35,812 nucleotides of DNA from positions 1-35,812 of IMG/VR virus record IMGVR_UViG_3300037320_000081. The stretch is one strand, 5' to 3'. Below the pieces are notes generated by a model, which was not told the origin of the DNA, searched no databases, and saw only the letters and a program-made list of their open reading frames with translations. Made by a program: the position numbers and the translations under genes. Positions 1 to 35,812 of this stretch are shown piece after piece. Position 1 is the stretch's first letter. Each line of letters begins with the position of its first letter. This stretch comes from a virus.

Positions 1-191
1 GGGATAATTATCAGCTACTTGATACGATATTTGTAAACACGAAAGTAGTAGAGGCCTTGTTTCTTTTGAACTTATCAGACGTTCGGAACTTGGATTTTAC
101 CGTTCCTGTTTATGTAGATTATTTTGGTGACTTCTTTTATATTGAGCAAATCAAACAATTCAAAGTTAACAGACGTGAGAGCTGTTTTGTC
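1..191. repeat. Terminal redundancy, left copy
   Basis: These 191 bases are repeated at 35622-35812 with a single difference: T at 128 against C at 35749. Both copies lie inside one tail gene, and the difference is synonymous (GGT/GGC, glycine). The gene reads through the join without interruption, so this is the overlap of a circular or circularly permuted molecule rather than a functional repeat inside a linear genome. The mismatch argues against a plain exact k-mer overlap from an assembler and suggests strain variation or a read error. Confidence 0.93.
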
Positions 192-540: not shown

Positions 541-2958
541 ATGTCTGAAGAAAGTATATTATTACGAGTCGGTATTGACGAGAATCAAATAAACAGAAGT
601 CAAAATGCTATAATTGCAGCTCGTACTGAGCTGCAACGATTACGGGAATCTCAAACGTTATTATCAGCAACAACAGGGAGAAATTCACGGGAGTTCATAC
701 AAAATGAAACCGCTATTGCTGGGCTAAATACTACAGTTCGGGAAAATCAGCGTGTACTAACCGCAAACAATCGTATTCAGGAGGTTAGCACAGGATCGAT
801 TGTAGAACTACGGGCTAACATATCAAGACTAAGAAATGAGTATGTAAATCTAAGCGCAGCCGAACGAGATAACGCGCAAGTTGGTGGGGTATTGCAAGCG
901 GAACTACTAGCGCAAACTGAGGCGGCTAGAGCTTTGGATTTGGGTATCGGGGTGACTAGTTCAAGCGTAGGTAATTACACACAGTCTATCATTTCAGCAG
1001 TTGATAGTTCGGGGATATTTGCCAAAGCTCAGGCAGCACTGGCCACTATTCAAACCGTAGCCACAGCCGCAACGGGGGCTGGTACAATAGCTACTAAGTC
1101 TTTTGGTAATGCTTTGATTGCTACGGGAATAGGTGCAATAATTATCTTATTCGGTTCGCTTATCTCATTCCTTACAAGGACACAAAGGGGAATGGATCTA
1201 GTCGCAAAGGCTACGGCTGGACTCAGTACATTTGTAGCGGTAATATTTGACGCGTTCAGTGATTTAGGTAAGCAATTAGTTGGAACGATTGTACCCACTT
1301 TTGAAGGTCTTGGAGAAATAATAGGAGGTATTATAGACTTAGACTTTGATCGGGTTAGAAAAGGAGTCGATGGCATAGCGGAGGCAGTCGGTAAAGTTGA
1401 GCCTATTAATATTCTAGAGGTCGCAGGAGCAGCAGGTAAAGCGTCAGCCGAAGCATTCAAACTAACTAGACAGCTTCAAAATGTGGTTAGAGCTGAAAAA
1501 GCCTTGTCACTTGAAACAGCAAATAGTAGAGCTGAGATTGAAACGCTCAAGAAGGCAGGTGACGACATAACAAAAAGCACTGAAGAACGGCTCGCATCTA
1601 CTCAGAAAGCGAATAGCATTGAACTAGCTCAAGAAGCTAAAAGAACTGCTTTACAAGAAGACAGGGTTAGGATTTTGAAGGAGCAAAACGAACTGAGCAG
1701 CTCAACCGATGAAGATATTAACAGGGTAATAGAAGCAGAAATTGAGCTTGCAAATATCAGACAAGGCAGCGCAACGATACAAACCGAACTGCAAAACAAA
1801 CTAAACTCACTTAACAAAGAGGCTGAGGACAAGAAAACAGCAGCAAACGAAACAGCACTTGCAGAAAGAACAAAAGCTAGTGAAGCGGCTACAGCAGCGC
1901 AAAACAAATCAGACGCAGAGTCATTGAAAGCATCTATTGAGCTGCAAAAACAAGTAAATGAAAACTATCAACAGGCACTTGAGCAACGACAAATTGAGAC
2001 TGATCTAGCCGTTAGGGATTCGATTAACCAGGTACGCCAGCAGTTTGCGGATGGCTTGATAGATTTGGATGCTTACCAAACAGCCTTGGACCAAGTTGAA
2101 GCACTTGCTATTGAAACAAGACAGGCAGCGGTAACAGGTCAATTAGAAGCTAACCGAACCAACGCGGTAATTGACGCGGAAACCAGATTAGCAATCGAAA
2201 CGGAACTACAGGCAGAATTGAGAGCATTGCAAGATGAAACTATCAGCGCGGGAGTTGATGCGCAAAAAGCTGCATTAGTAGCAGAAACTAAACTAGCAAA
2301 AGATAAAACAGACTTAGCAAAACTAACATCAGATTCACAGATTGCGGCAACCGATGCGGTACTAAGTGCAGCACTTAGCGTGTTCGGGGCGCAAAGTGTA
2401 GCGGGTAAAATAGCAGCTACCTTTCAGGCTGGTGTTGATACTTTCAGGGCTGCAAACTTAGCACTTGCAACTATACCGCCTCCATTCGGTCAAATTGTGG
2501 CAGCCGCTACAGTAGTACAAGGCCTTGCAAATGTTAAAAAGATCAACGCTAAAGCCCCTCCAAAATTTGCAGAAGGTGGAGCGATGGAAGTATCGGGGCC
2601 CTCTCATGCAGGCGGTGGCGTGGATGTTGCTTTGGGTGGTCAAACAGTGGCAAACGTAGAAGGTGGCGAGGGCTTATTTGTTATGAAGAGATCAGCGTTT
2701 GGGGCATTGAAAGCACTATCTAGTTTCAATCAAAGGCACGGAGGTAGATCATGGATGACAGGGAGTCAACGACACTTGGCAGATGGTGGAGCTATTGCAA
2801 GGGGTGGAATTCCTATGCTAGACCGTTCGGCCTTGAATGAGACAAGGCAGGGTTTTGAAAACGCAATTAATAGCCTGACAATCGTAACGAAGGTAAGCGA
2901 CCTGAATCGGGTTCAAGGTGAAATTAAGCTAGTTGAATTGCAGGGAGATTTAAGGTAA
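541..2958 (+). CDS. Tail tape measure protein
   Basis: This 805-residue protein would set tail length and line the tail tube before DNA ejection. Residues 1-130 and about 300-640 are long Ala/Glu/Gln/Lys-rich helical or coiled-coil stretches. A hydrophobic segment at about 180-215 (IATKSFGNALIATGIGAIII) resembles the membrane-active segment of many tape measures. A glycine-rich C-terminal part (FAEGG, GGGVDVALGG, VEGGEGLFVMKR) is common in Bacteroidota phage tape measures. By the usual rule of about 1.5 angstrom per residue the tail would be near 120 nm. It follows two small tail genes with three bases between, and there is no Shine-Dalgarno sequence before the ATG. It is the last gene before the opposite-strand island. 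Confidence 0.88.
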   Translation: MSEESILLRVGIDENQINRSQNAIIAARTELQRLRESQTLLSATTGRNSREFIQNETAIAGLNTTVRENQRVLTANNRIQEVSTGSIVELRANISRLRNEYVNLSAAERDNAQVGGVLQAELLAQTEAARALDLGIGVTSSSVGNYTQSIISAVDSSGIFAKAQAALATIQTVATAATGAGTIATKSFGNALIATGIGAIIILFGSLISFLTRTQRGMDLVAKATAGLSTFVAVIFDAFSDLGKQLVGTIVPTFEGLGEIIGGIIDLDFDRVRKGVDGIAEAVGKVEPINILEVAGAAGKASAEAFKLTRQLQNVVRAEKALSLETANSRAEIETLKKAGDDITKSTEERLASTQKANSIELAQEAKRTALQEDRVRILKEQNELSSSTDEDINRVIEAEIELANIRQGSATIQTELQNKLNSLNKEAEDKKTAANETALAERTKASEAATAAQNKSDAESLKASIELQKQVNENYQQALEQRQIETDLAVRDSINQVRQQFADGLIDLDAYQTALDQVEALAIETRQAAVTGQLEANRTNAVIDAETRLAIETELQAELRALQDETISAGVDAQKAALVAETKLAKDKTDLAKLTSDSQIAATDAVLSAALSVFGAQSVAGKIAATFQAGVDTFRAANLALATIPPPFGQIVAAATVVQGLANVKKINAKAPPKFAEGGAMEVSGPSHAGGGVDVALGGQTVANVEGGEGLFVMKRSAFGALKALSSFNQRHGGRSWMTGSQRHLADGGAIARGGIPMLDRSALNETRQGFENAINSLTIVTKVSDLNRVQGEIKLVELQGDLR

Positions 2959-3048
2959 AAAAATAGGGGGCGGAGGAGTCGAATCTGATTGTTTCATTTC
3001 TAAATTACCGCAGGCGAAACGTCTATTACGTACCTTTTTTAGCCCCTA
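2957..3048 (-). ncRNA. tRNA-like structured element with T-run, minus strand (candidate)
   Basis: Read on the minus strand, TAGGGGC (3048-3042) can pair with GCCCCCTA (2971-2964), giving seven pairs with one bulged base. The enclosed sequence has a GTTTC/GAAAC pairing and ends with TTCGACT, CCTCC, GCCCCCT. Those are the spacings of a tRNA T-loop, T-stem strand and acceptor strand. Seven T residues follow immediately (2963-2957), as after an intrinsic terminator. The 5' strand of the T-stem (TCAGA) does not match its partner and the D-arm is not canonical, so this is not a normal tRNA. It could be a degenerate tRNA, the tRNA end of an old attachment site, or the 3' structure of the minus-strand transcript above it. 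Confidence 0.35.
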
Positions 3049-3078
3049 AATTTAATGTTACAAATATAACTTTTTTAT

Positions 3079-3228
3079 TTATTTGTCTGGCGTCCAGCCT
3101 AGAACCTTATCAGAATAATCTTTGCCAGTGACTAAAAAAACAGTAACAAAGAAAGGCAAACAGATAATGAAAACGACTAAGGATAAAAGCACCGCGATAA
3201 CGACTAAAAGTCTTTGTAGGTATATCAT
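3079..3228 (-). CDS. Small single-span membrane protein, 49 residues
   Basis: The start codon overlaps the stop of the upstream minus-strand gene in an ATGA arrangement, so the two are probably translated together. Residues 4-35 form one long hydrophobic segment (LQRLLVVIAVLLSLVVFIIC and on), followed by a short polar tail ending GWTPDK. The N-terminus has one arginine, so an N-in orientation is plausible. There is no lipobox. It is transcribed against the surrounding late genes. A role in membrane modification, lysis timing or superinfection exclusion is conceivable, but nothing in the sequence decides between them. Confidence 0.6.
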   Translation of the reverse strand: MIYLQRLLVVIAVLLSLVVFIICLPFFVTVFLVTGKDYSDKVLGWTPDK

Positions 3229-3365
3229 GAGTTTAGGTATTTATGTATCAATGTTTTTAAAATATTAGTTTGCGTCTTATTCTCTTGCTTGACCTTAGCC
3301 AAAAAGTTAGCCTTGAGTTCTTTTGAGATATGTACTTTGATTTGATCGAGATCACCTTTTGGCAT
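3225..3365 (-). CDS. Small ribbon-helix-helix-like DNA-binding protein, 46 residues
   Basis: The product reads MPKGDLDQIKVHISKELKAN at its start and continues with QENKTQTNILKTLIHKYLNS. A short beta strand (IKVHI) followed by two helices separated by a polar turn (NKTQ) fits the ribbon-helix-helix (Arc/CopG/MetJ) fold, and the length is right for one domain. Such proteins act as dimeric repressors. It is the first gene of a two-gene minus-strand unit and lies back to back with the protease/capsid operon, so both promoters fall in the short gap at 3366-3433. It could repress itself or the head operon. The fold call comes from pattern only. Confidence 0.6.
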   Translation of the reverse strand: MPKGDLDQIKVHISKELKANFLAKVKQENKTQTNILKTLIHKYLNS

Positions 3366-3433
3366 ATCACTTTAATTATTTTGGGGAATTTACAAAAATT
3401 TATTTGCATAGTGTAATTAAATTAGTAGCGAAA
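3366..3433. promoter_or_regulatory. Divergent control region between minus-strand island and head operon
   Basis: This 68-base A+T-rich gap separates the divergent RHH gene and protease gene. On the plus strand a TTG at 3381-3383 is followed by TTTATTTG at 3399-3406, a loose match to the Bacteroidota -33/-7 pattern with short spacing. On the minus strand TAAATTTT is a near match to TAnnTTTG. The protease ATG at 3434 is preceded by TAGCGAAA, which matches the start-proximal AGCGA element seen elsewhere in this genome. Promoters must be here if both genes are expressed independently, but neither match is strong. Confidence 0.35.
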
Positions 3434-4621
3434 ATGAAGATACTTAATATTGAGGGTATAATTAGCAGCAAAGCCGACGCGGAATATTTTGCGGAAGGTG
3501 AAAAATACTTTAGTTATGATGATTTAGAGGACTTCATTTCCAATAATTACGGTGAACCTTTCGAGGCGGTGATCAAAAGCCCGGGAGGTTCGGTTGAGGA
3601 AGGATTCAGGATATACGACAAGCTCAAATCATTGCAGGTAACAACCGTTGCAATCGTGGCCAACAGTATAGCTTCAGTGATTTTCTTAGCCGGTAAGGTG
3701 CGAAAAGTTACGGAATCAACCGAAATGATTATACATAACTCTTGGGTTAGTGCTGAATCACTTTCGGGCGAAAAATTAAACGTTCACAGCCTTGGAGCAT
3801 TAACCGAACTGTTTGCGGCTACTGATTCACAAATATTGAATGTATATACCCAGATCGCAGGTGATGCAAAGGCTACTAAGCTATTAGCATTAATGGGTAA
3901 AGAATCACGGCTAGACGCAAAAATGGCATTAGACTTTGGGTTTGCTACTGAGCTAGTAGATAACACTTATTCCGCTATTAGTTTCAAAAATAAGGTTTTG
4001 ACTTTTAGCAGGAATCAAATTGAAATTTTAACGGATCAAGATATGAAAACAGAAGAGAAAATCACAGCCTTTGAAAAGGCAATGAATGCCATGAAAAACA
4101 TCTTCAAAGTGCAGATGAGGAACATGGTGATGACAACCGACGCAGGCGTTTCGATATTCATTGAAGGCGAAGGCGATATGTTGGGCAAAACCGTCTATAT
4201 CGCAGAAGATGGACTTCCAACAGAAACACTAGCACCGGCAGGTCCGCACTCATTTGCAGACGGTTCTAGCGTTGTACTTGACGAGTCGGGCATAGTTATC
4301 GAAGTATTACCAGCCGCAGCACCAGCCGCAGCAATGGAAGAAGTCGAGGCATTACAGTCTACTATTGCAGCAATGGAAGATGACAAGATGAAAGATCAAG
4401 CCGTTATAGTCGCTTTGAATGCAAAGGTAGCAGCTCAGGCGAAAGTAATCGCAGACGGCAATACAAAGCTAACAAAGTTGGCAGTTGATTTTAAGGACTT
4501 GAAAAACATGGTGAACGGTGATCCTGACACTAAGAAGAAAAATGCAGTTATTCCATCGGCTGAATTCGCAAAATTATCGTATTCTGAGCAAATCAGACAG
4601 CGAGCAATGAATAAAGTTTAA
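3434..4621 (+). CDS. ClpP-type prohead protease with scaffold-like C-terminal region
   Basis: I start at ATG 3434 (MKILNIEG), after TAGCGAAA, because the longer frame back to 3359 needs a TTG start and its first 25 residues lie in the intergenic region. The product has 395 residues. Residues 1-180 match the ClpP/SppA-type head maturation protease: KSPGGSV at 48-54, the nucleophile region VANSIASVIFLAG (Ser78 by spacing), and His101 in IIHNSW. The third position, Asp in ClpP, aligns with Glu157 in KESRLDA. Residues about 195-395 are Ala/Glu/Lys-rich with a coiled-coil stretch (MEEVEALQSTIAAMEDDKMK), typical of a scaffold joined to its protease. The capsid gene follows 21 bases later, so the protein probably builds the prohead and then processes it. 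Confidence 0.87.
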   Translation: MKILNIEGIISSKADAEYFAEGEKYFSYDDLEDFISNNYGEPFEAVIKSPGGSVEEGFRIYDKLKSLQVTTVAIVANSIASVIFLAGKVRKVTESTEMIIHNSWVSAESLSGEKLNVHSLGALTELFAATDSQILNVYTQIAGDAKATKLLALMGKESRLDAKMALDFGFATELVDNTYSAISFKNKVLTFSRNQIEILTDQDMKTEEKITAFEKAMNAMKNIFKVQMRNMVMTTDAGVSIFIEGEGDMLGKTVYIAEDGLPTETLAPAGPHSFADGSSVVLDESGIVIEVLPAAAPAAAMEEVEALQSTIAAMEDDKMKDQAVIVALNAKVAAQAKVIADGNTKLTKLAVDFKDLKNMVNGDPDTKKKNAVIPSAEFAKLSYSEQIRQRAMNKV

Positions 4622-4642
4622 TCCATAAAACTAAAAAATACA

Positions 4643-5878
4643 ATGGCAGATATTAATTTTCCAAACGGCAATACTTACGCGGGCAAGCTCTATGCCGAAT
4701 TTCTTACACCCGCAATTCTAGCCCCAACAGGAATCGTAAACAGAGGATTAGTTACACCTGTAGAGTCAGTAAAGAACGTTGAGACGCTACGAGGCGTTAA
4801 CCGTGTTATTGAATTGCAGACACCTAGCGCTCGTTTTGTCGCTCAGGACGGTGATATTGAACTAAGCGAAAAGCAGTTGACCATGAAGGCTTATGAGGTC
4901 ATGGATGAAATTGACGCAATCCAGTTAAGTAAAACTTGGGAATCTGAGCAGCAATTACCTGGTTCTTTCGAGGATTACAAATTGACTCCGCAATTATACA
5001 ACTTCTTGCTGGATAGAATCTATGTGCCAAGAATGGCTATTGCTAACGAAGCTCTTTACATTTTAGGTAAGGCAGGCGTAAATAATACCCAAGTGGCTAC
5101 AGCTACTTTCTCAGGTGCTTACGTAGGTCTTTTGGGCGAAGCCAAGGCAGACGCAGGCGTCGCTAAAAAGTCTTTGCCAGCTAATTCAAAGTCCGCAATT
5201 TCAGCTATCGCTTCAGGTACAGCAGGTAATGCAACCGTAACAGTTGCCAGTGCTGCAAATATTATAGTTGGTGACCGTGTAACCTTAATCGGAACTAACG
5301 GAAACCAGACAATCGGAGGCGTTACAATCTTAGGACAGGTGGTTACGGTTATCGAGATCACAGGGAATGTACTGACAATCGATGAGGCAGTTGTAGGATC
5401 AACCGCTGCAAGTGCTGGTAATGCTTTTTTCATTAATCAGAATAATGTACTAAGCGTTTTGACCTCTGTTTACATGAGCATCCCTCAGAAGGTTAAGAAG
5501 CAAATTTCAAACACGGGTAACGGAAGAACAAAGATTCACGTATCTGACAGAATCGCGGACGCTTACCGCGTTGCAAACGGTTTGATTGCAGGCGGAGCAG
5601 GAGCGTTTACACGAGATGTTTACTTCGATCAGGCAGCTTTGATTCCTTATTTGGATATTGATTTGGTAGCTATGCCATATTGGGAAGACAACCTTTTGGC
5701 GGTCTTTAATCCGGGTAACGTGTTCTTAGGTTTTGACTTGTTGTCAGATGAAGTATTTGCTCAGGTATTGTATTTAGGAGATGTCACAGGGGATCAGGTT
5801 TACAGGATCAAAAACCGAATGAAATCTGATATTACTTACAAGTATGCAGCTGAATTGTCTTTGTACTTACCAAAATAA
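4643..5878 (+). CDS. Major capsid protein (HK97-like fold expected) with inserted beta domain
   Basis: The 411-residue protein directly follows the protease/scaffold gene, the standard place for the major head subunit. The N-terminal 170 residues and residues about 265-411 (MPYWEDNLLAVFNPGNVFLG, RIKNRMKSDITYKYAAELSL) read like the two parts of a Bacteroidota phage capsid protein. Between them, about 184-262, lies a segment rich in G, T, V and I (NATVTVASAANIIVGDRVTL, VVTVIEITGNVLTIDEAVVG) that looks like an independent small beta-sandwich inserted in the fold and probably exposed on the capsid surface. A hairpin and a 56-base gap separate it from the next gene. I see no obvious N-terminal delta domain beyond the separate scaffold. 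Confidence 0.85.
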   Translation: MADINFPNGNTYAGKLYAEFLTPAILAPTGIVNRGLVTPVESVKNVETLRGVNRVIELQTPSARFVAQDGDIELSEKQLTMKAYEVMDEIDAIQLSKTWESEQQLPGSFEDYKLTPQLYNFLLDRIYVPRMAIANEALYILGKAGVNNTQVATATFSGAYVGLLGEAKADAGVAKKSLPANSKSAISAIASGTAGNATVTVASAANIIVGDRVTLIGTNGNQTIGGVTILGQVVTVIEITGNVLTIDEAVVGSTAASAGNAFFINQNNVLSVLTSVYMSIPQKVKKQISNTGNGRTKIHVSDRIADAYRVANGLIAGGAGAFTRDVYFDQAALIPYLDIDLVAMPYWEDNLLAVFNPGNVFLGFDLLSDEVFAQVLYLGDVTGDQVYRIKNRMKSDITYKYAAELSLYLPK

Positions 5879-6595: not shown

Positions 6596-6790
6596 ATGCT
6601 GAAATTCAAACCAGAATACCAAAATAAAACTTTAGTCCTATCGGATGGCACGCTAGTTAATTCAGACAATATCCAAGGCGAACACGTACAAAAGCGATTA
6701 AAAGAAACTCCATTGGTAAGTGAATTTTTTGAATCTGTAAAATCAGAAGCCAAAGAACTTTTAAAAGTTGCAAGAAAAAGAAATAAATGA
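6596..6790 (+). CDS. Small protein upstream of portal, 64 residues, function unknown
   Basis: The frame starts at ATG 6596, 25 bases after the terminator, and overlaps the portal start by four bases (ATGA at 6787). The product begins MLKFKPEYQNKTLVLSDGTL and ends in a basic helix (SEAKELLKVARKRNK). There is no membrane segment. Coupling to the portal gene suggests a minor head or assembly role; small proteins with a short beta N-terminus and a basic helical tail often sit in head modules. I do not recognise a family. Confidence 0.65.
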   Translation: MLKFKPEYQNKTLVLSDGTLVNSDNIQGEHVQKRLKETPLVSEFFESVKSEAKELLKVARKRNK

Positions 6791-8331
6791 GCAAGTCTAG
6801 GAATGTAAGGCAGGCACAACGGATTATAAATATGCAAGCCCCCTCAGCTAGTGCCAAGGGTCAAAACGTATTCAAAACCTTATCTGATCTAAAAACTAAG
6901 GTAGCCAGATCGATTAAAAATGCCGTTGCTGTTATCCTAAAGAATCAGGCAAATGACTATTATTTTTTTGGTGAACTTGATAATTTGCCAAATGCGATCA
7001 TTGCAACGGTAGACAATTCAGGAACCGCTACGGCTTGCGTAAATAGGTTGCAGCAGTTTATAAAAGCAGATGGTTTTATCCTGGATGGGATGGATGAAAT
7101 TAAAGCTAACAAGTACCAAAGTTTAGCCGGGTTAGTAGACGACTTGAGTACAAACGTATCTTATTTTCAGGGTTTGGCACTTCGCTTGGTTTTTAACAAT
7201 CTTGGTCAGGTTGCAAAAGTTTATTGTATTCCTATTTCTACTTTGAGAAGGAAAAATAACGGCTTTGAATATAACCCGCTCATGGGCGAAGTTGGAAAGT
7301 TGGAAAGAGATACTAGATTTTACCCTGAATACGATCCTGAAAGAACACCTATAGAACGCGCTCAAATCATAGCCGACCAAATCGAATTGCATAAAGAGCA
7401 GTTGGGCGAGATCCTATATGTATTCAAGAAAGGTTTAGGCAGGTATTACGATAAATATCCTGTACCTCCTTTTTATTCTTCGATTGAAGATATAGTGAGT
7501 GATGGCAAGATTAGCCGCTTAGACCTTAGAAATATAGCGCAAGGATTTAGGACTCCTGTTGTCATTTCTACAGGTCCGATCGACGACCAAAACAAAGACG
7601 AAGACGACAAGACAGCTCAAGACTATTTTGACGAGGCACTAGAAAGTTTCACCGGGGAAGATGCAAGCCCGATTTTGCACCTAAAGGGCAGCACTGAAGA
7701 ATTTAAACCTACGGTGACAACAATAAACGTAGCTGAAATACTAGACCAAACAGACCGCGCAAGCGATAGAATAGCCAAACGCGTAGCTAGGATTATGAGT
7801 GTACCAGCTATTTTAGTCGGTTTAGGCGAAGGCGGAAAACTTGGAGATACCAATGAGATAAAAAACCAGATGGCTTTATTTTCTTTGTCAGTATTCGGTA
7901 TGCAGGACATGATTAAGCAGGCATTTGATATACTCAAACCAATACTGGCTTTGGAAGGTTTACCTCCTAATGCTGATTTTACACTAAGCACGCTCAAGCC
8001 TTTTGATTTTATACCAGATTTGGTTATCGCAGGTTTGACTATCGAAGAGCAAAAGGAACTGTTTGAGATTGACCTTGAAAGTAGTGTTCCTGTAACTTTG
8101 CCCGGTGCGGTGCCTGAACTAGCAGCACAAGAGCAAAACAATGCCTTTGCAAATTTGACAGGGCGGCAACTTCAAAACATTCAGCGAATAGTTCGAAAGT
8201 TCAACAAAGATGAATTGACCTACGATCAAGCCGAACTTATGTTGATGCAGGGGTTCAACATGAAAGACATTGACGCAGCGATTTGGTTAGTTACAAAAGA
8301 CGAAGAGGAGGAGGACAATTATGCCGGATAG
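6787..8331 (+). CDS. Portal protein
   Basis: This 514-residue protein would form the dodecameric ring at the head vertex through which DNA is packaged. Size and sequence features fit: an N-terminal part with YYFFGELDNLPNAII and NRLQQFIKADG; a central region with conserved aromatic and charged blocks; the portal-like stretch DRASDRIAKRVARIMSVPAI followed by LVGLGEGGKLGDTNEIKNQ; and an acidic C-terminus (KDEEEEDN). It overlaps the small gene upstream (ATGA) and the connector gene downstream (11 bases). It is odd that it lies after the capsid and probable tail tube genes and nearly half a genome away from the terminase, where portals normally follow. Confidence 0.85.
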   Translation: MSKSRNVRQAQRIINMQAPSASAKGQNVFKTLSDLKTKVARSIKNAVAVILKNQANDYYFFGELDNLPNAIIATVDNSGTATACVNRLQQFIKADGFILDGMDEIKANKYQSLAGLVDDLSTNVSYFQGLALRLVFNNLGQVAKVYCIPISTLRRKNNGFEYNPLMGEVGKLERDTRFYPEYDPERTPIERAQIIADQIELHKEQLGEILYVFKKGLGRYYDKYPVPPFYSSIEDIVSDGKISRLDLRNIAQGFRTPVVISTGPIDDQNKDEDDKTAQDYFDEALESFTGEDASPILHLKGSTEEFKPTVTTINVAEILDQTDRASDRIAKRVARIMSVPAILVGLGEGGKLGDTNEIKNQMALFSLSVFGMQDMIKQAFDILKPILALEGLPPNADFTLSTLKPFDFIPDLVIAGLTIEEQKELFEIDLESSVPVTLPGAVPELAAQEQNNAFANLTGRQLQNIQRIVRKFNKDELTYDQAELMLMQGFNMKDIDAAIWLVTKDEEEEDNYAG

Positions 8332-13951: not shown

Positions 13952-14030
13952 TCTTTTGTTTTGCATTATTAAATAAAATAGTTAATTTTATGGTATAGCA
14001 ATTCAGCTAAAACAAACCAAAGCGATTATG
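13939..14030 (+). promoter_or_regulatory. Promoter plus conserved leader, copy 1
   Basis: TTG at 13961-13963 and TAATTTTA at 13983-13990, 19 bases apart, match the Bacteroidota -33/-7 pattern. The spacer carries the shared sequence ATTAAATAAAATAGTTAAT. A leader follows containing AATTCAGCT, AACAAA and AAAGCGAT just before the ATG at 14028. The block 13949-14030 is matched at 14581-14662 with about 89% identity and no gaps by eye, and shared sequence extends back to about 13939. Confidence 0.75.
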
Positions 14031-15447: not shown

Positions 15448-16935
15448 CTATGAAAATTCTTTCGTCCATGCCAGCATTTCTAAAACTACTTGAGGCATTG
15501 GTTTATTCTTGTCTTTTGTAACCTCTACAGGTGGGTTGAACTCATTTTCAAACCCGACGCAGTTAACCATGTTGTAACCGTTAGTTTTTCCGTTGTCCTG
15601 AGTCTGCCGATAATATCCTAATAGCGAAGAATCCTTTGCCCAAAGCGTTATAACGTCGTGATTGTAGCATAAGTGACCTACTGTAGCACCTGAGAGAATT
15701 TCTCTATCTCCAAACTCCGTGGTTGGATAACTTCGGAAATCAAAGTTAGCCTTGAAAACTAAATACGCATCTACCGCATTTTTTGGAGCGTAGAAAATAG
15801 CTTCGTAGGCTTCAATAGTATAAATGCCATCTTCAGGAAGTTTTGCATCCGTGAAACAGGCTAATTGAAAAGCAAGGTCTAAATTCTTATCATCCCCCCA
15901 TTTGGTCCAATCCGTGTAGTAAGTTCGGTTTTTTTCCTTGATTATGTATCCGGTGTTGTTAATATAGAAAATGTCCCCCGCTTGCGGTTCCTTACCTATG
16001 AAAAATGCCCGACCATTATTCACTGTAACACTTTCGCCTGTAAAAGGTCTAGGTCTTAGCTTGCAGGTATTCCAGTCTAGCAAGCTTTTATTTCGGTCTA
16101 TCTGGAAAGTGAAGCGACCTGAATGGATCAAAAAAGAGCTGTTAGAATTTGAGTCTTTCTGAAAATTGTAATTATTCAGAAACTCAAAGTTCAGCCCTTC
16201 GGTTACCGTAAAGGTATCATCTTTGAAAATACCTTTGACTAACGTCTTATTATCTCCCCACTTTTTTAGGTTGGTATAATCTGCATTAACATTGTCAAGC
16301 GTGACGTTGAGAACGCATCCAGGGTAAGGATTCTTGGCATCCATAAGACCGACACCTTTGAATTTCCAGTCTACCAATGCGATATTATTTTCGCTTAGAC
16401 CTCCGTACACAAAGCCTATTCCAAACCCTCCATTTTCTCCGTTATCGTTGTTTTTGATGACTACTGCCCACTTTGCGTTTGGGTCTTGAGCTGACCTGAA
16501 AAGCGAGGGCATCCAAGGTTGAGTACTATATATTTGCTTTGGTTGGGAGATGTGAACGTTTTGAATTAAGATTTCAGCACCGTTTTTCAGTGTGATTAGG
16601 TGACCGCTTTGAGTTGCTTTTTCTGTGTCGTAATTCTCAATTCCAATTATGAGCTTTGCAAATCCATCCTTGCAGTAGATTATTTTTCTGCTTGAAATAT
16701 TGACAGAGCTTACATGGTCTACTATATACGTATAACCATCTTTGAGTTCAAAAAATACCTCCTTACTTGACAAAAAATCGTAAAAATTATCAGTTATGTT
16801 TAAATTTTTAGGAGTTGAAACCTCATCTTCTTTAGCTTCCGGAACCGGGGTTACTGATTCGGTAACAAGTTCAGGAGTCCAAAGACCCTCAAATTTTCCT
16901 AGTCCTTCAATTTTTAGTTCTATCTTTCTGTTCAT
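15448..16935 (-). CDS. Large unknown beta-rich protein, 495 residues
   Basis: This is the only large minus-strand gene. The start ATG at 16935 is preceded by AACAAA and AGAGCG, the same leader elements as the plus-strand early genes. The sequence is strand-rich with repeats of the type seen in right-handed beta-helix proteins (VSSVNISSRKIIYCKDG, GHLITLKNGAEILIQNVHIS, NPYPGCVLNVTLDNVNADY) and many Trp/Tyr/Asn residues (TDWTKWGDDKNLDLAF). Two W-G-D-(D/N)-K motifs recur (KKWGDNKTL, TKWGDDKNL), hinting at an internal duplication. No signal peptide. A glycan-binding or depolymerase-type fold is possible, but I recognise no catalytic motif and it is not in the tail operon. It may be a moron-like gene expressed on its own. 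Confidence 0.75.
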   Translation of the reverse strand: MNRKIELKIEGLGKFEGLWTPELVTESVTPVPEAKEDEVSTPKNLNITDNFYDFLSSKEVFFELKDGYTYIVDHVSSVNISSRKIIYCKDGFAKLIIGIENYDTEKATQSGHLITLKNGAEILIQNVHISQPKQIYSTQPWMPSLFRSAQDPNAKWAVVIKNNDNGENGGFGIGFVYGGLSENNIALVDWKFKGVGLMDAKNPYPGCVLNVTLDNVNADYTNLKKWGDNKTLVKGIFKDDTFTVTEGLNFEFLNNYNFQKDSNSNSSFLIHSGRFTFQIDRNKSLLDWNTCKLRPRPFTGESVTVNNGRAFFIGKEPQAGDIFYINNTGYIIKEKNRTYYTDWTKWGDDKNLDLAFQLACFTDAKLPEDGIYTIEAYEAIFYAPKNAVDAYLVFKANFDFRSYPTTEFGDREILSGATVGHLCYNHDVITLWAKDSSLLGYYRQTQDNGKTNGYNMVNCVGFENEFNPPVEVTKDKNKPMPQVVLEMLAWTKEFS

Positions 16936-17000
16936 CGCTCTTTTTTTTGTTTATGCAATCTACAGAATAATTTGATTAAAAATAGCTATCTTTATATCGA

Positions 17001-17061
17001 AGGTCGCTCTTTGTTTAGTTTTGTGATTGGTCCCGGTTGTGAAAATAATCGGGATTTTTTT
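17001..17061 (+). ncRNA. Candidate small RNA with intrinsic terminator, complementary to the leader motif
   Basis: A -7-like TATCTTTA lies at 16987-16994 and a terminator follows: TCCCG (17031-17035) pairs with CGGGA (17050-17054) before seven T. No gene ends here on the plus strand, so the terminator needs another transcript. The 5' part contains GGTCGCTCTTTGTTTAG, the reverse complement of the leader element AAACAAAGAGCGA used before several start codons. No clear -33 TTG is present at the right distance. The alternative is a degenerate second leader for a lost minus-strand gene. Confidence 0.35.
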
Positions 17062-17070
17062 ATGTCAAGT

Positions 17071-17149
17071 TTGTAATTATTAAATAAATTGTTTAATATT
17101 ACATAAGCAAATGAGGAACGGTCTTCAACTGCAAACAAAAGCGATCATG
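17071..17149 (+). promoter_or_regulatory. Promoter, copy 3, and leader
   Basis: TTG at 17071-17073 and TAATATTA at 17094-17101, 20 bases apart, surround the shared spacer ATTAAATAAATTGTTTAAT (17079-17097). The leader differs from copies 1 and 2 but ends with AACAAAAGCGATC before the ATG at 17147. It drives the first early genes. Confidence 0.75.
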
Positions 17150-33793: not shown

Positions 33794-35812
33794 ATGACTG
33801 AGATATTTATAAATGGTCAGTTAGTTGACACACAGGATGCGGACATAGTTATCACAGCTCAGGCACTTACCTTTGATCAGTTAGGCAGCCGACGAGGCAG
33901 TTACTCAAACGTCTTTGACTTGGCGCGCACAAACGAGAACAAAGCCCTGTTTGATAATTGCGATATCGTTACAAGTTTAACCTCAATTCCATATCAAAAA
34001 AATTCATGCCAGATTTTTATTAATGGCCAGCTTATTGTAGATGGCAGCGCAATAATCCTAGCAAGTAAGACTACCTATAGACTATACATAACAGCAGGTA
34101 ACACGAACTTTTTTAAATCAGTCGGGTCTTTAAAACTAATAGATGTAGATTTAGTGGATTACGATCACCTCTACAACGGGCCTAACGTAACAGCACGACG
34201 CGAAACGGTAGAAGGATTTGTATATCCTAATATTGACTACGGGTTTTTTGAGTTTGCTGAAGCAGATCAGACTAATTATAGCTTCCGTTTTTTCCAGCCT
34301 AGTTTTTGGGCTAAGACCATTTTGGAGAAAGCTATATTTGATTTGGGTTACACGTTGCAAGGTGCTATACTGGATAGTTTGATCTTCAGAAGTTTAGCAG
34401 TTCTTTGCCGTGGGGCGGTCTCTGACTTGCTAGATAGTTTAGCTAAGTACACATTTACGATTGATTTTAATCAACTGACAGGAGCGACAACTGAAAAGAT
34501 AAGTTTTCCTAATAAAGTTAGTGATACAACTGGAAGATACGGCCCCAATTCAGATGCAGGTCATTTTACCTATACTCCAAACGTAGCAGACAGAGAAGAG
34601 GCACGAATCGAGATTAACTTCACGGGCAAAGTAATAACTAACCTACCTAGGGACTACACAAATGCAAATGTATTTGTAGAATTGCTAGTTTACAATTCAG
34701 CGGGTTCTTTGCTGTTGACCTTGACAAATTCAGTAACTTTTGAAGACAGGTTCTTTGGCTTGTTTAACATTTACCGCGCGCCAAGTTCTGGAACCTTAGA
34801 AAGGGACTTAAACTTTACTTTTCCTTCAAGCCGTGACGATGTAACTGCTTTTAGTACATTAATTAACAGCACATCAGACTTAACTACTTTGCGCTTTGGT
34901 TGGCAGGTAAGAAGCAATCGAGCAGGAGCAGGACTTAAAAGACTACGTTTTGAGAACTTAGAATTTACGATTAATCAGCTACCTCAAGGCGGCACAAGAA
35001 TAGGCGGCCCAAATATTCCAATAAATGTTAGAGCCGCAAACGTTCTTCCATCTTCGCCAACAGTAGGAGATTTGTTACTAACTATTGCTAATTTAGAAGG
35101 GATTATTATTCAGGTTGACGAAACAACTAAGAAGATTAACACCGCTAAAATTGACAATCTTAGAACTAATAAGGCAAAGGCGTTGGATTGGTCTGATAAG
35201 TTAGACCTCACTGAAGACCCTGAAATTGGTTATCAGCTTCAAGGCTTTGCGCAAAATAATTTCTATGAGTTTGCAGGAGATGAGAAAGACCAACTATTGC
35301 AACCGAACGCGGGCCGAGGTTCTTTCTTGGTTGACAATGTTAATTTAGAACCTGAAAAATCAGTTTTTAAAAGCAAGTTTAGCCCTGTACCTTCGCTTCC
35401 AACGTTTCAAGGTTCGCGAGTTATGGGTCGCGTGTTCACAGGTGAAAAGTACACCTTTGACGGGTTTAATTATAATCTTAATGCTGAGATAAAAATAGAG
35501 GACTTTGCTCCTAGGATAGCAATCCTAGCAGCCGCTGAATCGTCTTTGGATATTATCGTTGGACAAAATGAAATAAACTACGAAGTCAATGCAGGGGCTT
35601 TGAGCTTTGAGCGAGCGTTGCGGGATAATTATCAGCTACTTGATACGATATTTGTAAACACGAAAGTAGTAGAGGCCTTGTTTCTTTTGAACTTATCAGA
35701 CGTTCGGAACTTGGATTTTACCGTTCCTGTTTATGTAGATTATTTTGGCGACTTCTTTTATATTGAGCAAATCAAACAATTCAAAGTTAACAGACGTGAG
35801 AGCTGTTTTGTC
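33794..35812 (+). CDS. Large tail/baseplate structural protein, continuing at the start of the window
   Basis: The frame starts ATG 33794 and is open to the end of the window (673 codons); it continues at 1-215 for a total of 680 residues. It begins MTEIFINGQLVDTQDADIVI, then QLGSRRGSYSNVFDLARTNE, an N-terminal phrase I associate with a large virion protein common in Bacteroidota phages. After that come strand-rich segments with repeated NGQL, a glycine/asparagine-rich middle (TGRYGPNSDAGHFTYTPN), and C-terminal LQGFAQNNFYEFAGDEKDQL. It probably forms part of the tail tip or baseplate. Its gene precedes the tape measure gene, whereas tail-tip genes usually follow it. Confidence 0.75.
   Translation, partial: MTEIFINGQLVDTQDADIVITAQALTFDQLGSRRGSYSNVFDLARTNENKALFDNCDIVTSLTSIPYQKNSCQIFINGQLIVDGSAIILASKTTYRLYITAGNTNFFKSVGSLKLIDVDLVDYDHLYNGPNVTARRETVEGFVYPNIDYGFFEFAEADQTNYSFRFFQPSFWAKTILEKAIFDLGYTLQGAILDSLIFRSLAVLCRGAVSDLLDSLAKYTFTIDFNQLTGATTEKISFPNKVSDTTGRYGPNSDAGHFTYTPNVADREEARIEINFTGKVITNLPRDYTNANVFVELLVYNSAGSLLLTLTNSVTFEDRFFGLFNIYRAPSSGTLERDLNFTFPSSRDDVTAFSTLINSTSDLTTLRFGWQVRSNRAGAGLKRLRFENLEFTINQLPQGGTRIGGPNIPINVRAANVLPSSPTVGDLLLTIANLEGIIIQVDETTKKINTAKIDNLRTNKAKALDWSDKLDLTEDPEIGYQLQGFAQNNFYEFAGDEKDQLLQPNAGRGSFLVDNVNLEPEKSVFKSKFSPVPSLPTFQGSRVMGRVFTGEKYTFDGFNYNLNAEIKIEDFAPRIAILAAAESSLDIIVGQNEINYEVNAGALSFERALRDNYQLLDTIFVNTKVVEALFLLNLSDVRNLDFTVPVYVDYFGDFFYIEQIKQFKVNRRESCFV
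35622..35812. repeat. Terminal redundancy, right copy
   Basis: This matches 1-191 except C at 35749 for T at 128. The mismatch is a synonymous third-position change in a GGT/GGC codon of the tail gene. It marks the overlap of a circular molecule. Confidence 0.93.

Follow-up and report, generated by a model that had tools for sequence, protein, structure and literature searches.

The minus-strand cassette between the tape-measure and head protease genes of the virus contig IMGVR_UViG_3300037320_000081 is probably an accessory (moron-type) unit in which a membrane peptide and a small RNA with a pseudoknot accompany an autoregulator of the ribbon-helix-helix (RHH) type. The contig, analysed over its full 35,812 bases (the window), carries a direct terminal repeat of 191 bp (window 1-191 and 35622-35812, with one mismatch, GGTGAC/GGCGAC), indicating a circularly closed phage map of ~35.6 kb or, alternatively, terminal redundancy with a population variant. 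The best matches of its replication primase are those of Nonlabens phage P12024L/S and Cellulophaga phage phi46:1 (45-42% identity), which places the phage among phages of Flavobacteria. The tape-measure gene is followed by the cassette, the ClpP-type head protease, a probable capsid gene and the portal (6787-8331), and then by holin, amidase, exonuclease, Gam, primase, helicase and large terminase genes. The flanking genes run opposite to the cassette, as the earlier note had said of all its neighbours, but the genome holds another minus-strand gene at 15448-16935. This gene encodes 495 amino acids without a PHROG or Pfam match and has a convergent terminator-like region on its flank; the region upstream of it (16977-17111) is 97% conserved in contig L019. 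The features of the junction are:

541..2958, plus strand: tail tape measure protein, flank (phrog_3336, E 5e-6)
2957..3056, minus strand: pseudoknotted structured RNA, ~100 nt, from the predicted +1 to the end of the U-tract
2957..2963, minus strand: U7 tract, minus-strand intrinsic terminator, overlapping the tape-measure stop codon (2956-2958)
2964..2969, minus strand: 3' strand of stem P1, CCCCUA, abutting the U7 tract (partner 3043-3048)
2970..2973, minus strand: 3' strand of stem P3, CCGC, contiguous with the P1 3' strand (partner 3008-3011)
2991..2996, minus strand: 3' strand of the pseudoknot (PK), UGAAAC (partner 3015-3020)
3008..3011, minus strand: 5' strand of P3, GCGG (partner 2970-2973)
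3015..3020, minus strand: 5' strand of PK, GUUUCG (partner 2991-2996)
3043..3048, minus strand: 5' strand of P1, UAGGGG (partner 2964-2969)
3061..3084, minus strand: putative RNA promoter, an A-rich element and the -7 box TATATTTG (3068-3061, fits TAHHTTTG), with predicted +1 at 3056
3079..3228, minus strand: 49-aa membrane peptide (TM), an ORF with a hydrophobic stretch at residues ~7-34 and an ATGA overlap with the RHH gene
3225..3365, minus strand: 46-aa RHH-like protein MPKGDLDQIKVHISKELKANFLAKVKQENKTQTNILKTLIHKYLNS, from its ORF, profile matches and third-position-biased changes
3366..3433: divergent intergenic region of 68 nt between the RHH and protease starts, with AT-rich inverted repeats only
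3434..4621, plus strand: ClpP-type head maturation protease, flank (phrog_94, E 1.7e-24; CLP_protease, E 1.7e-12)
4643-5878: probable capsid protein, matching phrog_11320, a phrog of no known function

The two short, coupled genes on the opposite strand that the earlier note described are well supported. When the region was shuffled 3000 times under a Markov model, 0.33% of the shuffles contained two ATG-initiated ORFs of at least 46 aa, and none contained a pair coupled by ATGA. Both frames are intact in all four relatives (L002-L005), the conservation on which the claim had been staked. Changes in the RHH gene among relatives number 1, 0 and 8 at the three codon positions, indicating that the ORF is coding. 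The TM gene evolves faster and still shows a third-position bias (11, 8 and 30 changes), and its peptide retains 86-90% amino acid identity in the four relatives. This peptide has one strongly hydrophobic stretch (Kyte-Doolittle 19-mer maximum 3.26), in agreement with the single membrane span proposed earlier; searches with Pfam, NCBIfam, PHROG profiles and PADLOC gave no family above cut-off and no homologue with a known function. At fourfold-degenerate sites the divergence is 0.26-0.29 in the protease and tape-measure genes, 0.14 in the TM gene and 0.029 in the RHH gene, whose synonymous sites (3225-3365) are ~10x less diverged than those of the flanking genes. Either a recent exchange of the segment between these phages or an extra constraint at the DNA or RNA level could account for this low divergence.

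The 46-aa protein is likely RHH-like, judging from its profile matches: RHH_1 (E 0.081), the Arc-like phrog_582 (E 0.021), RepB-RCR_reg (E 0.058) and PRK13702 (E 0.0033) all cover residues ~7-46, several models thus agreeing on the span. The earlier assignment therefore holds in that several RHH-type profiles align along nearly the full length, but the Pfam and NCBIfam matches are sub-threshold, falling below their curated cut-offs (RHH_1, 13.4 bits against 20.5; PRK13702, 17.4 against 87). A single-sequence AF2 model of the monomer is one helix spanning residues 3-44 (pLDDT 94.8).

Below these genes the earlier note had placed a structured element with a T-run. The element exists and its left limit was correct, but it exceeds a plain hairpin in size and complexity, extending from 3056 to 2957. 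Its inner stem P3 stacks on the outer stem P1, and a pseudoknot pairs the P1-P3 joining strand with the P3 loop. P1 and P3 are present already in the single-sequence fold, and the pseudoknot emerged after relatives were added. A short additional stem P2 is possible (GGU..GCC, ACGU/ACGU); it is invariant and in partial conflict with PK. The 3' strands of P3 and P1 (CCGCCCCCUA) followed by U7 on the minus strand form the GC-rich stem and U-run of an intrinsic terminator, which a scan for simple-hairpin terminators misses because of the long loop.

Each helix is supported by one two-sided compensatory change: GC to AU at 3046/2966 in P1 (L003), UA to CG at 3018/2993 in PK (L004) and CG to UA at 3010/2971 in P3 (L004). 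These three changes account for all six helix substitutions among the five phages, and no pair is broken. Pairing is standard in 64 of 64 pair cells (16 pairs in four distinct sequences) and is destroyed when the partners are slid, while 11 of 500 letter shuffles reached the observed pairing score. Random placement of the substitutions over 94 columns gives p ~1.5e-7 for the 16 chosen pairs. For PK, found while looking at the alignment, this value is somewhat optimistic; for P1 and P3, predicted beforehand, it is not. The covariation sample consists of three events in five closely related records and is no deep phylogeny. Outside the helices the RNA differs in one loop only, where 2 bases are deleted and one beside them is substituted (L002 and L005). 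Across the RNA, 7 of 92 columns vary, compared with a fourfold-site divergence of 26-29% in the flanking genes.

The order RHH, TM, RNA is kept in all five records (the window phage and L002-L005), and no record was found that has these flanks and lacks the cassette. Its content varies. L004 and L005 have a 70-aa minus-strand ORF (ORF70) between the -7 box and the RNA, preceded by the phage's usual leader (..AGAGCGATTATG), and L002 has a second -7 box, which contains 2 inserted bases, and a plain hairpin-U9 terminator after the RNA. These differences indicate a modular cassette whose constant 3' part is the RNA. ORF70 (MKCIQLNN..NRK), found in two of the five phages, has no family match. The second unit of L002 (3388-3540), with the tail of a TM-like gene, the -7 box TATATATTTG and the hairpin-U9 terminator, looks like the remnant of a duplicated cassette. 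In L005, the head protease gene (4001-5578; L018 12236-13891) carries an insertion of ~390 nt relative to the other phages.

PMC6847099 gives the Flavobacterium -7 consensus as TAHHTTTG, the G standing at -5, and also supplies the spacing used here. Just upstream of the RNA, at the TM stop codon (AAATAAATAAAAAAGTTATATTTG), the Bacteroidota-type box TATATTTG fits this consensus perfectly and is invariant in the five records. It lies 12 nt before P1, with the predicted +1 (3056) 8 nt before P1, and so the RNA may be a small-RNA gene of its own. A -33 TTTG is absent before this box, the window has 45 exact matches to TAHHTTTG, and L004 and L005 have no promoter directly before the RNA. Given the missing -33 and the commonness of the motif, we put the existence of a promoter proper to the RNA, predicted from the -7 box, at only slightly better than even. 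An A-rich and -7-like arrangement also precedes plus-strand genes at 13969, 14601, 17967 and 30744 (10 against 2.6 in the comparison made), and a looser pattern adds plus-strand sites at 17082 and 25315; the recurrent promoter-like motif at these six sites consists of ATTAAATAAA and a -7 of the TAAT(T/A)TTA type. A leader ending in ARAGCGA stands just before the ATG of genes heading units (3434, 14028, 14660, 18029, 18303 and 30790) and likewise before that of the minus-strand gene 15448-16935; at the protease (3434) the start context is GTAGCGAAAATG.

The earlier suggestion of a self-contained moron-like unit is supported by these observations: the position is conserved, the content varies between relatives, the terminator-like end is clear, and one or more promoters of its own are probable, the -7 box being promoter-like and lacking a -33. 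An unrelated minus-strand island near the same junction in phage P12024L agrees with it. In such a moron-type cassette, the RHH-like protein would repress its own promoter in 3366-3433 and the 49-aa peptide would insert in the inner membrane of the host, peptides of this kind usually serving in superinfection exclusion or membrane modification. Transcription of the RNA would yield a ~100-nt small RNA driven by its own -7 box, the 3' end of the mRNA of the operon, or both; P1 would end transcription ahead of an antisense run into the tape-measure gene. The core with the pseudoknot may protect the RNA or bind a partner. Of the functions considered for the RNA, only termination ahead of the tape-measure gene follows from its anatomy; trans action, protection and partner binding are what we infer.

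It is possible, though doubtful, that the RNA is just an elaborate terminator that also stabilises the RHH-TM(-ORF70) mRNA at its 3' end; it would then play no part in trans, and the -7-like box would be there by coincidence. The RNA is always located at the 3' end of minus-strand genes, in L004 and L005 it follows ORF70 directly with no promoter of its own, and a plain hairpin-U9 terminator takes the same place in the second unit of L002. However, a plain hairpin would suffice for termination, whereas here the pseudoknot is kept by compensatory change, the loops are near-invariant despite the divergence of the flanking genes, and the -7 box is invariant too. Were the RNA a terminator only, it would be an example of a pseudoknot built into a terminator to guard a tape-measure gene from antisense transcription.

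More speculatively, the RNA could be the first known member of a class of small phage RNAs. Such an RNA, a compact pseudoknot set in its own terminator stem and made from its own promoter, would act in trans, and might for instance inhibit a host factor or defence or serve as a decoy for one; the RHH-like protein and the peptide would be its companions. To our knowledge, structured RNAs of small Bacteroidota phages have been little studied, and trans action, if true, would add a phage RNA class. An Rfam cmscan (E<=10) of 2700-3700 found no match over the RNA and only chance matches of lncRNA, snoRNA and sRNA type elsewhere; a known ribozyme, riboswitch or other Rfam family was rejected on this basis. 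The element has some resemblance to a tRNA or tmRNA (TTCGACTCC and an acceptor-like P1), but P3 occupies the would-be T-stem strand; a tRNA/tmRNA-like element or att site was rejected, as ARAGORN detected none and a T-arm would conflict with the covarying P3. A frameshift pseudoknot of the tape-measure gene was discarded as well, its stop codon coming before the A-run and ~160 nt separating the two in L002. Antisense targets of the RNA at phage gene starts scored no better than those of shuffled segments. Since the RNA is compact and apparently delimited by a terminator and a box resembling a promoter, with compensatory support for three of three helices, it can be directly cloned, probed and deleted.

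Control of the head operon by the RHH-like protein is suggested by proximity and possible. We nevertheless think it unlikely that the cassette is a late-gene switch in which the protein binds 3366-3433 and controls the head/protease operon. The divergent starts lie just 68 nt apart, the protein is RHH-like, the protease start has the context of the first gene of a transcription unit (AGCGA..ATG), and the synonymous sites of the RHH gene are unusually conserved. However, a search of 3366-3433 for a clear RHH operator returned AT-rich inverted repeats only, which are not convincing as an operator; the region is 92-97% identical in the relatives. The related Inhavirus P12024L moreover has unrelated minus-strand genes near the same junction, and head expression in general thus needs no such repressor.

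A toxin-antitoxin or defence/counter-defence system, with an RHH antitoxin and a hydrophobic toxin or with the RNA as an antitoxin or decoy in trans (in the style of type III systems or AbiF), is very improbable. It would fit an ATGA-coupled operon in which a DNA-binding-type protein comes first and a hydrophobic peptide second, adjoined by a pseudoknotted RNA, and phages with RNA mimics of antitoxins are known (PMC3475682). Against it, PADLOC found no match. The test for a type II system was negative, the 46-aa protein having no C-terminal toxin-binding tail and the peptide belonging to no family above cut-off. The test for a type III antitoxin RNA was negative too, the element being single, with no tandem pseudoknot repeats and no Rfam family, and its neighbours being the TM, RHH, tape-measure and protease genes.

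We consider it equally improbable that the minus-strand reading is wrong and the element acts in the 3' UTR of the tape-measure mRNA, in stability or processing: the compensatory pairs, all Watson-Crick, do not choose the strand, and plus-strand folds are similar in energy, but a U-tract follows P1 on the minus strand only, the MFE z is better there (-2.1 against -0.6), the G38-U57 pair at the end of PK becomes C-A on the plus strand, and an insertion in L002 puts ~160 nt between the element and the tape-measure stop.

The RNA was found only in one lineage, in five records, in the collections searched. Four patterns run over IMG/VR recovered it only in the same four related contigs, and the additional pattern matches are unrelated: one in L015 is coding, and twenty more (L129-L148) lie in unrelated contexts with no model match below E 0.3. 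An exact 22-base pattern had no match in GTDB bacterial genomes, nor did blastn find the RNA in cultured phages and plasmids; its absence holds only for these collections at these sensitivities. The RNA model R1 gave no credible match over 47 primase-related contigs, most of which are fragmentary or carry another head module, as G006 does. Matches of 20-25 bits in L016 and G006-G008 were treated as chance, as they are of low complexity, P1 is broken in L016 and they probably represent one homologous region; the L016 match sits at the end of the Gam gene. Homologues of the protease were likewise not found in the primase-related contigs, because these are partial or without this head module. G006 (L118, L119) shares a similar replication module and has a different structural (head/tail) module, from which the cassette is absent.

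Compared with CopG/Arc-type RHH repressors (RHH_1 PF01402, phrog_582), the 46-aa protein has the same size, the strand-helix-helix sequence pattern and a near-full RHH_1 alignment; it differs in scoring under curated cut-offs, in its all-helical single-sequence model and in having only a hypothetical operator. ToxI-like type III antitoxin pseudoknots are similar in being short, phage-associated pseudoknotted RNAs, whereas the RNA here is a single copy of ~100 nt with no tandem repeat, no adjacent endoribonuclease gene and no Rfam match. In the Inhavirus P12024L, an eight-gene minus-strand island (gp51-gp58) lies between the tape-measure-like gp50 and gp01. It shares with the cassette its opposite strand in a plus-strand genome, its small genes and its location immediately upstream of head genes on the circular map, but no homologous gene or RNA was found in it, it has eight genes and a simple hairpin end, and gp01 is not recognised as a homologue of the ClpP-type protease. 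The P12024L island also has a long noncoding gap with apparent inverted repeats (L025 34935-35230), which could hold another structured element. The presence of this island would fit a favoured site for accessory genes. Unlike phage morons, it carries a conserved pseudoknotted RNA, and no integrase was noticed; like them, it is probably an extra transcription unit within conserved late genes, with signals of its own (the promoter being putative) and a variable content.
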